Of a DNA stretch of 64,000 bases, positions 6,432 to 59,848 are shown one piece after another. The stretch comes from Angustibacter luteus. GTDB taxonomy: Bacteria; Actinomycetota; Actinomycetes; Actinomycetales; Angustibacteraceae. The translations under genes were made by a program, and so were the position numbers. Positions within the stretch are counted from its first letter, which is position 1. Each line of letters opens with the position of its first letter. Below the pieces are notes generated by a model. It made no database searches. It was not told where the DNA came from and saw only the letters and a list, made by a program, of their open reading frames with translations. Location of the stretch: contig NZ_BAABFP010000002.1 in the NCBI RefSeq assembly GCF_039541115.1, forward strand, positions 310,001 to 374,000, read 5' to 3'.

Positions 6432-6577
6432 GATGCTCCTTGACGTTGACGGTCGCCGGGTCGCCCGAGGCGGAGTGCACGAGGGCGTGAGCCGGAACCA
6501 ACGGTCCAGTGTGCCAGACCTGGCACGTGAGTCATAACCAGCGAGCAGGGGTGGACATTCCTGCTCGACTCCCCCAC

Positions 6578-55819: not shown

Positions 55820-57121
55820 CTACTCCACGCGGGTGACGACCCGGGTCAGCGCCGACACGACCCGAGGGTCGTACTCGTAGGCCAGTCCGAGGTGGATCCG
55901 CTCGAGCGCCTCGCGTCGCCGGCTCTCCGTGCCACCGTCCCCGACGAGGTCGTCGTAGGCGTTCGCGGCCTTGATGATCCGGCTGCCCAGCGGGACGGCG
56001 CGGTCATCGGTCTGGTGGTGACGGCGGTACGGCTCGCACTGGCGCTCGATCATGTCGGCGACGTCGTTCAGCACGCCGGTCCGGCGGACCACGTCGGCCC
56101 CCAGGTCGGCGATCCGGCGCTGCTCCATCGGGGCGGCCATCACGGTCGCCCCGCCGGGGATGGGCTCGCTGAGCGACAGCTGCCCGATGTCGTGCAGCAG
56201 CGCGGCGTACTCCAGGTCGCGCAGCGAGCGCTCGACCATGCCGAGGTCGCGGCCCATGGCCAGCGCCAGCGACGCCACCCGTCGCGAGTGCCCGGTCTCG
56301 GTGTAGCCGCCGAGCTCGGTGACCCGGGACAGCGACCGGATGGTCTGGTTGTAGGTCTCCTGGATCGTGGAGTACCGGCGGAACGCGAACTGGGTGAGCA
56401 GCAGCGGCGCCAGGAACACCGGCACGGCCAGCAGACCCATCGGCTCGGCGGCGAGGGCGATCAGCACCCCACCGCAGCCGATCGCGCTGCCCAGGGCGGA
56501 GTTGAACCGCAGCTCGTCGACCAGGACGGACTTGAGCCGGGCGTTCTCGTCGCCGGCGCGCATGGTGGCGGCCAGGATCGCGTCGAACGCCAACGAGACG
56601 GCCACCGCGAGCAGCATCAGCACCGCCAGGAACGACCGGTTGCCGACCCAGGCGCGACCGGCCTCGGCGACCGAGCCGTGCTCGGTGAACGGGATGACCC
56701 GCCAGATCACGGTGAGCAGCGTGATCGCCAGGAACCGGTGCACCAGCCCGGCCAGCTCCGGCGGCCGACCGGCGAGCAGGTGCGGCAGGATGCCCACGAC
56801 GGTGGCGAGGGCGACGACGGCGATCACGGTCGCCGGGTCCACGGACCCGCCGTGCGAGGGACCGACGTTGGTGGTCAGCACGAACGCCACGGCCGCGGCG
56901 GTGCCGATCGGCGCCGCCTCGCGGTCGCCCGGCAGCCACACCCGCAGCGCCTCCCCCAGCGCGATCGCTGCGGCGAAGACCACCACGACATCGACGTTGT
57001 GCGCGCCGCGCTGGGTCAGGCCGGCCGCGGACGCCCCGACCGCCGCGGCCGCGACCATGGCGGCCAGGCAGCTGAAGGCCCAGGTGAGGGACAGCCGCGG
57101 TCCGTTGGGTCCGAGGGTCAT
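55820..57121 (-). CDS. membrane HD-domain protein, degenerate HD-GYP
   Basis: A 433-residue protein: about eight helices (to 265), then an HD domain with HSRRVASLALAMG and HDIGQLSLSEP (His-Asp near 309-310). The later part reads IERQCEPYRRHHQ where HD-GYP proteins have HHExxDGxGYP, so the GYP signature is lost. It may have no c-di-GMP phosphodiesterase activity and instead sense a ligand. ATG at 57121 overlaps the HD-GYP gene before it (ATGA); the longer frame is antisense. Confidence 0.85.
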   Translation of the reverse strand: MTLGPNGPRLSLTWAFSCLAAMVAAAAVGASAAGLTQRGAHNVDVVVVFAAAIALGEALRVWLPGDREAAPIGTAAAVAFVLTTNVGPSHGGSVDPATVIAVVALATVVGILPHLLAGRPPELAGLVHRFLAITLLTVIWRVIPFTEHGSVAEAGRAWVGNRSFLAVLMLLAVAVSLAFDAILAATMRAGDENARLKSVLVDELRFNSALGSAIGCGGVLIALAAEPMGLLAVPVFLAPLLLTQFAFRRYSTIQETYNQTIRSLSRVTELGGYTETGHSRRVASLALAMGRDLGMVERSLRDLEYAALLHDIGQLSLSEPIPGGATVMAAPMEQRRIADLGADVVRRTGVLNDVADMIERQCEPYRRHHQTDDRAVPLGSRIIKAANAYDDLVGDGGTESRRREALERIHLGLAYEYDPRVVSALTRVVTRVE

Positions 57122-58554
57122 CCGCGCTCCCCCTGGGCCGGCTGGCCGTCCAGGTCCAGCGGGAGCCGACCCTCGACGGCGAAGCCCGGGTCGTCGTGGT
57201 CGCGCGAGTCCGGCGGCTCGGGACCGAACGCCCCGGGGACGTCGAGCCCGGCCAGCCGGGGGTCGGGTGCGTCGGCCTGCGGGTCGGCCGGCACCCACTG
57301 GGTCCGCTGCAGCCCGTCGGTGAGCGCCGCGACGAAGACCGCATCGAACTGTGTGCCGGTGCACTGCCGCAGCTCCTCGACCGCGTCCTCGACGCTGCGA
57401 GCCTGCCGGTAGGAACGGGTCGAGGTCATGGAGTCGAAGGCGTCCGCGACGGCGATGATGCGCGCGAACTCGGGAATCGCCGAACCGGCCAGACCCATCG
57501 GGTAGCCCCGGCCGTCAAGCCGCTCGTGGTGGTGCAGGATCCCCTCGAACGCCTCACCGAGGAACTCGATCTCGCGCACCATCTCGAGACCGCGCACCGG
57601 GTGCCGCGCGATCGTGGCGAACTCCTCGTCGGTGAGGGCACCGGTCTTCTGCAGCACCCGGGTGGGCACCCCCAGCTTGCCGACGTCGTGCAGCATGCCG
57701 GCGAAGTGCAGGGTCGACGTCCGCTGCTGGGACAGGCCCGAGGCCCGGGCGATGATCACGGACGCGCGAGCCACCCGCTCGCTGTGGCCCCGGGTGTAGT
57801 GGTCCTTGGCCTCCACGGCCTGCACGAGGGCGGCCACCGTGCGTTCGTGCGCAGCGTTCTGCTCGGCGTACTGGGCGAAGGCCCAGCGGGCGACGAAGAG
57901 CGGGGCGAGCACCAGGACGGCGGACAGCGGGCCGACGCCGGCGGCCTTCCAGAGCACCACCAGCAGGAGGCCGAACAGGCCGTAGCCGACGTACGCGACG
58001 CCGCCGCTGCGGAGCATGCCGGTCAGCACCTCGCGGAACGGGACGCGGTTGTTCACGCTGACGATGCCCGCGACCAGCACCGCGTTCGCCAGGCACATGA
58101 CGACGTCGGCCAGCACCAGCGGGAGGGCGAGCCGGGTGAGCAGGTCACCGGTCGCGCCCAGCCACGTCTCGGGATCGGTCGTGCCGCCGAGCACCGTGAA
58201 CGCGAGCCCGGCGGACCCGGCCAGCAGCACGTACAGGGCCGTGTTCATCGCCCAGCGGACCGGCGAGACGCGGCGGATCTCCGGCAGCCAGGACGCGATC
58301 CCGACGAGCATGGCGCCCGTGGTGCCGACCAGCACGACCGAGGCCAGCAGCACGATGGAGTTGGTGCCGAGGTCGGTCCGCTCGTAGACGCCACGGACCC
58401 GCGTGACGCTGCTGACCAGGCACAACAGCGCCAGGACGGCGATATCGGCCCAGTGCTCGGGCGGCGAGACCCGCCAGCTGACGGCCAGCGACGCGCAGGC
58501 GAGCAGGACCGACCCACCGACGTACAGTCGGACGCGGGCCTGACTGCGGTCCAC
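57118..58554 (-). CDS. membrane HD-GYP domain protein, probable c-di-GMP phosphodiesterase
   Basis: A 478-residue protein: about seven helices (to 225), then an HD-GYP domain with HSERVARASVI, HDVGKLGVP (near 289) and HHHERLDGRGYP (340-351), complete for a diiron or metal-dependent cyclic-dinucleotide hydrolase. The tail (after 430) is Pro/Asp-rich. It heads the HD-GYP, HD, pilT run, which ties second-messenger turnover to pilus function (inference). GTG start at 58554 with GGGAG at 5 bases. Confidence 0.9.
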   Translation of the reverse strand: MDRSQARVRLYVGGSVLLACASLAVSWRVSPPEHWADIAVLALLCLVSSVTRVRGVYERTDLGTNSIVLLASVVLVGTTGAMLVGIASWLPEIRRVSPVRWAMNTALYVLLAGSAGLAFTVLGGTTDPETWLGATGDLLTRLALPLVLADVVMCLANAVLVAGIVSVNNRVPFREVLTGMLRSGGVAYVGYGLFGLLLVVLWKAAGVGPLSAVLVLAPLFVARWAFAQYAEQNAAHERTVAALVQAVEAKDHYTRGHSERVARASVIIARASGLSQQRTSTLHFAGMLHDVGKLGVPTRVLQKTGALTDEEFATIARHPVRGLEMVREIEFLGEAFEGILHHHERLDGRGYPMGLAGSAIPEFARIIAVADAFDSMTSTRSYRQARSVEDAVEELRQCTGTQFDAVFVAALTDGLQRTQWVPADPQADAPDPRLAGLDVPGAFGPEPPDSRDHDDPGFAVEGRLPLDLDGQPAQGERG

Positions 58555-58629
58555 TTGGCTCCCTCGTGATGGGCCAGAGTGCGTGAGGGAGACCGGCGGC
58601 TGGGGCGAACGAGTCGTTTAGCTCGTCGG

Positions 58630-58701
58630 TCAGCCGTTCATCCAGGTCCAGCCGGGCTGGGAGGAAAGGAACTTCTCGACTGCGGACACGATCTTGCTCA
58701 C
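58630..58701 (-). CDS. 23-residue peptide ORF inside the inverted-repeat element
   Basis: A GTG at 58701 is preceded by AAGGAG at 9 bases and opens 23 codons. The peptide starts MSKIVSAVEKFLSSQ and ends PGWTWMNG. The first 14 residues would form an amphipathic helix; the end holds two Trp. The ORF lies 75 bases upstream of the HD-GYP gene on the same strand. I recognise no family. A signalling or membrane-active peptide is one possibility; the SD is the main evidence for translation. Confidence 0.55.
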   Translation of the reverse strand: MSKIVSAVEKFLSSQPGWTWMNG

Positions 58702-58778
58702 GGGACACCACTCCTTGATCGGGTCGTCACGAGGCCGCTATTCCCCGCGCGCACTCCGCTCCGCTCTGGAAATGGACC

Positions 58779-58815
58779 TACCGGACAAACATACAGGGGT
58801 GACGTTTGTCCGGTA
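58779..58815. promoter_or_regulatory. perfect 12-bp inverted repeat, probable operator
   Basis: TACCGGACAAAC (58779-58790) and GTTTGTCCGGTA (58804-58815) are exact complements around 13 bases. The site lies about 78 bases before the peptide ORF (minus strand) and 225 bases before the plus-strand gene at 59041, so it may control divergent transcription. The arm length suits a dimeric regulator. No regulator gene lies next to it. Confidence 0.6.
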
Positions 58816-59040
58816 AAGCACCGCCGGTCTCCTTCACGCACTCTGGAGTTGTTCTGGTCTCGCTCGGCGGATGCTATCCGCCGATCCGCTCCGGGAGCCG
58901 CATGTCGCGCGGTCCGTGGACGCGTCGTTGCTCCGTTCGAGTGAACCAGAGGCTCACCCTGAGCGACATTCGACCCAAGAGTCACGCTGCGCAGCCGGGT
59001 GCCGACTACGTTCTGTGGTGACCGACCCCGAGGGAGCGAG

Positions 59041-59694
59041 ATGACGTCGTTGCGGCTACGGCCCGAGTTGGAGGACGTCCTGCGCACGGTGCCGGGCATC
59101 CAGGCAGTCAGCGTGGTGACCACCCCGGACGGCGCGCCCATCGAGGTGCACGTGCTGGCCGACCAGGGCAAGCCCGCCAAGCAGGTGGTCCGCGACGTCC
59201 AGTCCATCGCCATGACCGCGTTCGACCTCGACCTCGACCGGAAGATCGTCAGCGTCGTCCAGGTGGGCGAGGCGCCCTCCGCCACCCCGCTGCAGCTCGT
59301 TCCCGAACCGCCGGAGCCGACGGTCCGGCCCGTCGTGCAGCGGGTGAGCGTGAGCACCGAGCCCGGCAGCTCGGCGGCGGCGGTGACGGTGCGGATCGGC
59401 GACGACGAGTTCAGCGGCGAGGTGACCGGCGCCCCCACCACCGCCGCGCGCTCGCGGATGGTCGCCGAGGCGACCGTCCAGGCGGTCGGTGAGCTGCTCG
59501 GCGCCGGCTGCGAGGTGGAGTCCGCCCAGCTGCTGCGGGCCGGTGCGCACGACGTCGCCGTCGTCGTCGTGGCGCTGCAGGTCCCCCGGGTCGGTGAGCA
59601 GCTGCTCACCGGCAGCGCCCTCGTGCGCACCTACCCGGACGACGCGGTCGTGCGGGCCGTGCTCGATGCGCTGAATCGGCACCTGGCGGGCTGA
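59041..59694 (+). CDS. hypothetical two-domain protein
   Basis: A 217-residue soluble protein. The N-terminal half (VLRTVPGIQAVSVVTTPDG, EVHVLADQGKPAKQVVRDVQ) looks like a small alpha/beta domain; after a Pro-rich linker (about 85-100) the second half (VRIGDDEFSGEVTG, SRMVAEATVQAVGELL) resembles another alpha/beta domain. It has no signal or membrane segment. ATG at 59041 has GGGAGCG upstream. I do not recognise it; homologues may be confined to actinobacteria. Confidence 0.8.
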   Translation: MTSLRLRPELEDVLRTVPGIQAVSVVTTPDGAPIEVHVLADQGKPAKQVVRDVQSIAMTAFDLDLDRKIVSVVQVGEAPSATPLQLVPEPPEPTVRPVVQRVSVSTEPGSSAAAVTVRIGDDEFSGEVTGAPTTAARSRMVAEATVQAVGELLGAGCEVESAQLLRAGAHDVAVVVVALQVPRVGEQLLTGSALVRTYPDDAVVRAVLDALNRHLAG

Positions 59695-59773: not shown

Positions 59774-59848
59774 ATGAGCAAGCGCGCCCGCAAGCGCCGC
59801 AGCCGCAAGGGCAACTCCGCCAACCACGGCAAGAAGCCCAACGCGTAG
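59774..59848 (+). CDS. ribosomal protein bL37-type small basic protein
   Basis: A 24-residue very basic peptide opening MSKRARKRRSRKG and ending ANHGKKPNA. It matches the bL37 protein seen in mycobacterial 50S ribosomes, which ends ANHGKRPNA (from memory). AAAGGAGC precedes the ATG, and a perfect terminator follows. It is often missed in annotation because of its size. Confidence 0.88.
   Translation: MSKRARKRRSRKGNSANHGKKPNA

Follow-up and report, generated by a model that had tools for sequence, protein, structure and literature searches.

Does the short open reading frame (ORF) ahead of an HD-GYP gene encode a genuine peptide, and would such a peptide act on the enzyme? We know of no input signal for most HD-GYP enzymes. 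The window analyzed here, a 64,000-nucleotide stretch of a 4.16 Mb genome (G000), carries a 23-codon candidate that the first-pass annotation had placed at 58630-58701 without giving a strand. The ORF is real and is located on the minus strand (58701..58630), whereas no ORF of this kind is found when the interval is read on the plus strand. As had been described, AAGGAG (58716-58711) stands 9 bases ahead of the GTG, and the stop codon is followed, after a 75-base gap, by the start of the HD-GYP gene (58554) on the same strand. The features of the locus are collected in Table 1.

Table 1. Coordinates of the micropeptide locus in the window
Feature	Position	Strand	Evidence
hdgA, 6TM HD-GYP c-di-GMP phosphodiesterase (predicted), putative partner of the peptide	57118..58554	minus	Pfam HD_5 1.3e-40; AF2 model, fold matches
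hdgB, second, degenerate HD-GYP-like membrane protein, overlaps the end of hdgA	55820..57121	minus	Pfam HD_5 3e-11; conserved after hdgA
Micropeptide gene, 23 codons, GTG start, MSKIVSAVEKFLSSQPGWTWMNG	58630..58701	minus	ORF; conserved in relatives; selection on protein
Micropeptide Shine-Dalgarno sequence AAGGAG	58711..58716	minus	Read from sequence
P2 leader RNA domain, ends at the micropeptide start	58698..58781	minus	R1 match G000:C2:368698-368781, E 5.4e-12; covariation
P1 stem, 5' arm	58821..58846	minus	Inverted repeat, 26 nt, 96%; pairing conserved in relatives
P1 stem, 3' arm, between micropeptide stop and hdgA start	58574..58599	minus	Inverted repeat; conserved pairing

Conservation of the micropeptide

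Counterparts of the peptide precede the orthologous HD-GYP gene in G001, G002, and G004, which represent the same genus, the same family, and one other family of the order. These peptides (MSKIVSAVEKFLSAQPHWTWEG, MSTIVSAVEKFLAPQAGWTWGKP, and MKIIVAAVERMLSAEAVWAWEGR) are 86%, 79%, and 45% identical to that of the window, and none of the three contains a frameshift or an internal stop. Since the ORF is found ahead of the orthologous gene in relatives, the earlier suspicion that it exceeds chance is borne out. In an order-wide search of 297 genomes, the peptide was clear in G000, G001, G002, and G004 only; 12 further matches (E ≤ 0.05, best 1.2e-3) lie mostly within long frames and were taken as chance (L052 and L053 were read). 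With four of 297 order genomes clear, the near relatives sample this peptide family poorly; it is in the wider class that the family is common. A profile built from seven peptides matched 32 of 394 class genomes (E ≤ 1e-3). In 31 of these, an hdgA-type HD-GYP gene is located directly downstream on the same contig, and in the 32nd (G303) a contig end cuts the locus. These profile matches and the adjacency of hdgA strongly support the proposal of the first-pass annotation that a small conserved peptide is linked with a c-di-GMP enzyme. Judged by sequence, relatives of the peptide lie directly before the same HD-GYP enzyme across much of Actinomycetota.

The codon comparison indicates that the micropeptide is under selection as a protein. 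For codons 2-12 in frame, dN/dS was 0.08 in f27 (n = 6), 0.14 in f43 (n = 4), 0.33 in f1 and f2 together (n = 4), and 0.35 in f54 (n = 9). Across all 31 sequences, the in-frame value was 0.38, against 1.26 and 1.59 in the two shifted frames. Constraint is weaker in codons 13-20 (0.83 in f54 and 0.61 overall). Additionally, the serine of WSWW-type peptides is retained across TCC, TCA, TCT, and AGC codons. The micropeptide has no Pfam or NCBIfam match. Collectively, the codon patterns indicate that this overlooked tiny gene is a genuine micropeptide ORF, conserved as protein.

The tryptophan end and the leader RNA

Other families carry unrelated small ORFs in the same place, with a C-terminal Trp motif (WxW-x, SW-x, or WSWW). 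Of the 121 class genomes in which HdgA has a match, we surveyed 116, omitting G360, G381, G430, G511, and G631 as partial hits, and counted small ORFs that have a Shine-Dalgarno-like stretch ahead and Trp within the last two residues. Such ORFs occur in 73 of 86 hdgA upstream regions outside f37, compared with one of 86 when the reverse strand is read. Family f37, by contrast, has them in none of its 30 upstream regions (two of 30 on the reverse strand). Ten of the 13 exceptions outside f37 (G000, G001, G004, G019, G107, G396, G408, G416, G573, and G627) have Trp further from the end or a Shine-Dalgarno sequence below the filter. The f35 genomes G517, G547, and G616 show no recognizable Trp peptide upstream of hdgA.

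Of 89 catalogued peptides, 79 have Trp as the last or penultimate residue, 54 have WxW close to the end, and 35 have only one Trp near the C-terminus. Conserved C-terminal signal residues within a short ORF, as expected of pheromone precursors, are thus present. The N-termini are of several unrelated kinds: an amphipathic helix (MKKIVSAVERFL...), a hydrophobic or signal-like segment (MKKIAAVFGGLVALFVSAGAGFGWS, MFVSMFSAMMAAVLVASTFTGWSWW), and very short forms (MSKETVGRGHSGISWT, MFKMLLEPGVSWR, MREENWKWG, and MQINSNWKWA), with forms of 9-10 residues in f26 and f31. By a simple hydropathy rule, the N-terminus is hydrophobic in 31 of the 89 peptides; the window's own peptide, which is amphipathic and weakly hydrophobic, is not among them. 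With many family members hydrophobic or signal-peptide-like in sequence, it is plausible that the micropeptide is membrane-active or secreted. In f17 (L096, L129; G019, G107), a 53-aa version carries two GWGWGG or GWEWRG repeats in place of the single WxW end. In f31 (L099, L101, L097) and f26 (L139), the peptide is apparently divided between two consecutive ORFs, the first encoding a helix that ends in KWE or RWQ and the second encoding 9 aa that end in NWKWG or HWRWD.

In many families, as the covariation in alignments indicates, the ORF sits inside an undescribed leader RNA. The 341-nt leader region of the window folds better than its shuffles (z -3.5). The arms of P1 covary, with mean duplex energies of -61.0 kcal/mol for native pairs, -44.8 kcal/mol for cross-member pairs, and -37.6 kcal/mol for shuffled 5' arms. 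In 17 of the 32 members, the native partner pairs better than any of the others; this comparison covers 32 of 37 leaders, five without an exact anchor being omitted. P1 pairing is weak in f49, where G334, G351, and G367 have 8, 6, and 15 equally good foreign partners, respectively. P2 is located between the 5' arm of P1 and the ORF and comprises a near-invariant AGCGGAGCGGA, a hairpin with an AGCGG loop, and GUGAC (alignment A3, 36 sequences). Its helix has 11 pairs, nine of them with changes on both sides, and 91.9% of cells are paired, compared with 24-46% for slid partners. Within the P1 loop of the window, a perfect 12-bp hairpin (TACCGGACAAAC / GTTTGTCCGGTA) lies at 58779-58815, which is absent there in the other leaders read.

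At E ≤ 0.01, the RNA model R1 matches 43 of 394 class genomes, and in 41 of these the match reaches E ≤ 5e-11. The strong matches mark a single hdgA leader per genome, except in G337, which has a second match on a contig end, and in G303 and G375, whose contigs stop before hdgA. The matches in G435 and G506 are weak. Across the phylum, 16 of 396 genomes match. Outside the class, 11 of 13 matched loci were read (G742 and G785 were left out), and nine of the 13 (G658, G665, G670, G673, G684, G687, G719, G912, and G979) combine a small Trp-ended ORF with an HdgA homologue. The small ORF of G684 lacks a start codon (ATG, GTG, or TTG) where one would be expected, and the matches in G767 and G852 have no HdgA nearby and look like chance. 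The peptide is also found apart from R1: G001 carries it with no R1 match at E ≤ 0.01, and R1 likewise finds nothing in the peptide-bearing families f17, f26, f31, and f35. In f35 leaders (L137, L125, L118), a different conserved stretch (~GTGAAACCATGACnGT) follows the WSWW stop and is possibly another RNA element.

Searches of Rfam 15 gave nothing at the gathering score in the window leader and no sensible match in eight relatives at E ≤ 5, which rules out a known Rfam riboswitch as the identity of the leader. Elsewhere in the window, an Rfam L31-Actinobacteria ribosomal protein leader is located at 6451-6501 on the minus strand. Neither a terminator-like site nor a sigma-70 promoter was found in the window leader. 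Pairing of the Shine-Dalgarno sequence, as possible masking by P2 would entail, exceeds the control only slightly (0.72 vs 0.65, 27 of 37 above). The leader RNA is probably a second layer, controlling expression of both the peptide and hdgA.

HdgA and possible roles of the peptide

HdgA is predicted to be an HD-GYP phosphodiesterase. The catalytic motifs HDxGK, HHER, and GYP are present and form invariant columns in alignment A4, Pfam HD_5 matches the protein, and the AlphaFold2 model (mean pLDDT 85.0, pTM 0.71) matches HD-GYP structures. Moreover, residues ~30-208 of the model match ECF S-components (Foldseek TmRibU, E 0.03; VIA Z 10.3-12.9, covering riboflavin, biotin, folate, pantothenate, and thiamin S-components). 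The transition-metal transporter chains 4m5b (13.9) and 4m58 (13.2) appear in the same VIA table. All S-component match pairs are below 20% identity, and Z below ~13 can be common for helical bundles. Because helical bundles can reach such Z by common arrangement, the matches are support, not proof, for a six-helix S-component-like fold of the HdgA membrane domain. HdgA would thus share its predicted fold with RibU, ThiT, BioY, and FolT but, unlike these, is fused to HD-GYP; no ECF module gene (EcfT/EcfA) was found among the window neighbors scanned with Pfam.

In Streptomyces venezuelae, the consulted part of one account (PMC6205966) describes HdgA (6TM-HD-GYP) and HdgB (6TM, degenerate), whose mutants have no developmental phenotype. 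The domain layout and tandem order are the same as in the window pair, and that part of the account mentions no small ORF or leader. Family f37, with one genus and genomes of 6-11 Mb, is probably Streptomyces and differs from the window both in lacking a Trp-ended ORF in all 30 upstream regions and in altered membrane residues of HdgA. N104 and N157 in the membrane domain are found in 70 of 70 HdgA sequences outside f37 but in none of 24 in f37. The 70 sequences include G517, which has no recognized peptide; similarly, G547 and G616 keep N104 and N157. F103, S63, G77, Y191, and R223 also shift in f37 and are less strictly conserved outside it. Both asparagines are absent from HdgB of the six genomes aligned. 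At an HD identity of 0.8-0.9, membrane-domain identity is 0.62 in f37 and 0.62 in f35 (L105 and L087 were left out of the comparison). With this identity equal and only specific positions different, a simple relaxation of constraint on the f37 membrane domain is disfavored.

The position of the peptide directly before the HdgA enzyme, often in folded RNA, suggests that the peptide controls HdgA. We favor the view that the peptide product serves the HdgA sensor domain as ligand or subunit, a proposal whose chances we consider evenly balanced, because only the peptide end is common, because the linkage is to one membrane enzyme, and because the peptide and polar membrane residues are lost together. 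The conservation of the peptide, its linkage, the shared Trp end, the RNA covariation, and the joint loss in f37 are directly supported. The micropeptide would be co-transcribed with hdgA and translated, and its Trp-bearing C-terminus, serving as ligand or small subunit, would act on the HdgA membrane domain. This action would set the c-di-GMP phosphodiesterase activity of the HD-GYP domain, in a direction that may be either up or down. The recognized part would be the C-terminal W-x-W-x or S-W-x, whereas the N-terminal part, variously an amphipathic helix, a transmembrane or signal-like stretch, or hardly anything at all, would be interchangeable and would bring the peptide to or across the membrane. 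The signal-like forms suggest that the peptide may be exported and bind externally, but it might instead be retained in the membrane. The structured leader, with P1 around the ORF and P2 ahead of it, would add expression control. More tentatively, and with less than even confidence, we consider a phylum-wide module from peptide to c-di-GMP, in which an S-component-like membrane receptor, fused to an HD-GYP phosphodiesterase, would have as its dedicated ligand a Trp-ended micropeptide encoded by an ORF in a new leader RNA. If true, a vitamin-transporter fold would have turned into a peptide receptor controlling a second messenger. An encoded Trp-ended peptide beside one HD-GYP lineage across the phylum is a concrete, testable candidate ligand, the same locus adds a structured RNA leader with no match in Rfam 15, and the joint-loss pattern picks out the residues to mutate first.

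Some observations stand against a peptide acting on HdgA. The f37 loss concerns a single clade and could reflect lineage drift, the three f35 genomes without a Trp peptide (G517, G547, and G616) nevertheless keep both asparagines, and the low identity and common Z range of the S-component matches also weigh here. In addition, a leader peptide acting in cis would also account for the conserved RNA and for the 9-10 residue forms of f26 and f31; in that model, arrest or slow termination at Trp-x-stop would alter leader folding and thereby hdgA translation, the product having no further role. This is rather unlikely in our estimate, though the main rival: the ORF always lies immediately ahead of hdgA, the 3' arm of the covarying stem around it comes after the stop codon, and Trp is fixed relative to the stop while the N-termini vary. 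Small ORFs in structured leaders directly before the main gene are likewise a feature of ilvB-II-type attenuators, and uORF attenuation is known in Actinomycetota, according to the consulted part of PMC10272879. The micropeptide differs from that type in having no terminator found, protein-level conservation, a helix or signal-like N-terminus, and no Trp-metabolism gene. The conserved N-terminal helix with its low dN/dS, the window leader without a terminator-like site, and the Shine-Dalgarno pairing barely over control also tell against a leader peptide, which moreover leaves the loss of N104 and N157 alongside the peptide unexplained. A chain of 20-28 residues is still within the ribosome tunnel at its stop codon, and the hydrophobic or signal-like N-termini of many families are for this reason hard to explain. 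A role as ligand of HdgA and a leader-peptide role in cis could also hold together.

Other explanations fare less well. Streptococcal ComS and SHP are short pheromone precursors with a C-terminal Trp motif, encoded beside the gene of their receptor, a cytosolic Rgg/ComR regulator; the micropeptide is alike in its short precursor and Trp end, but its neighbor is a membrane c-di-GMP phosphodiesterase. A peptide exported as a pheromone or antimicrobial to some receptor or target other than HdgA, and linked to hdgA by co-regulation only, would accord with the signal-like precursors with short Trp tails and with such precedents, as far as partial accounts describe them. It is nonetheless improbable, given the very strict linkage to hdgA and the lack of a pheromone receptor or exporter among sigR, rsrA, hdgA, and hdgB, the probed window genes that the ten neighborhoods share. 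Many members carry two or three Trp codons shortly before the stop, as would suit an attenuator in which ribosomes awaiting charged tRNA-Trp turn hdgA on, but the 35 catalogued peptides with a single Trp near the end, the conservation of the flanking residues as amino acids, a downstream gene that is not a tryptophan gene, and the missing terminator-like site make this quite improbable. We give very little credence to a RiPP precursor with a crosslinked WxW core: the WxW core and the f17 repeats fit, whereas many members have one Trp and no modifying-enzyme gene was found among the window neighbors scanned. Least credible of all is a chance ORF in high-GC DNA, or conservation of RNA only. The region does carry conserved RNA, but the same peptide end recurs in different DNA contexts, and frame-specific purifying selection together with the reverse-strand control rules out a chance ORF.

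Pheromones, leader peptides, and small peptides that act on membrane proteins are all established classes. The peptide family, the RNA leader, and the pairing with HD-GYP are absent from the literature searched, from Pfam and NCBIfam (for the peptide), and from Rfam; within that literature, which covers few subscription journals, no peptide or RNA leader is reported for HdgA.

Gene neighborhood

The gene order sigR, rsrA, divergent gene, leader with peptide, hdgA, and hdgB is largely kept in the ten neighborhoods compared. Of the window genes used as probes, just four (sigR, rsrA, hdgA, and hdgB) occur in every one of the ten blocks, and the divergent gene is unmatched in G001, G364, and G446. 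The pilT gene follows hdgB in seven of the ten. A link of the peptide to pili, suggested by the first-pass annotation, turned out to be weak: G364, G446, and G520 have no pilT match and retain the Trp-ended peptide, and the pilus link is not supported as an essential one. The divergent gene (58999-59694) encodes 231 aa, with a start perhaps at 59042, and has no Pfam or NCBIfam match; it adjoins the leader in most actinomycete blocks examined, outside the class too. Between rsrA and the divergent gene, a small basic ORF (MSKRARKRRSRKGNSANHGKKPNA) is located at 59774-59848, and similar ORFs occur near the locus in some relatives.
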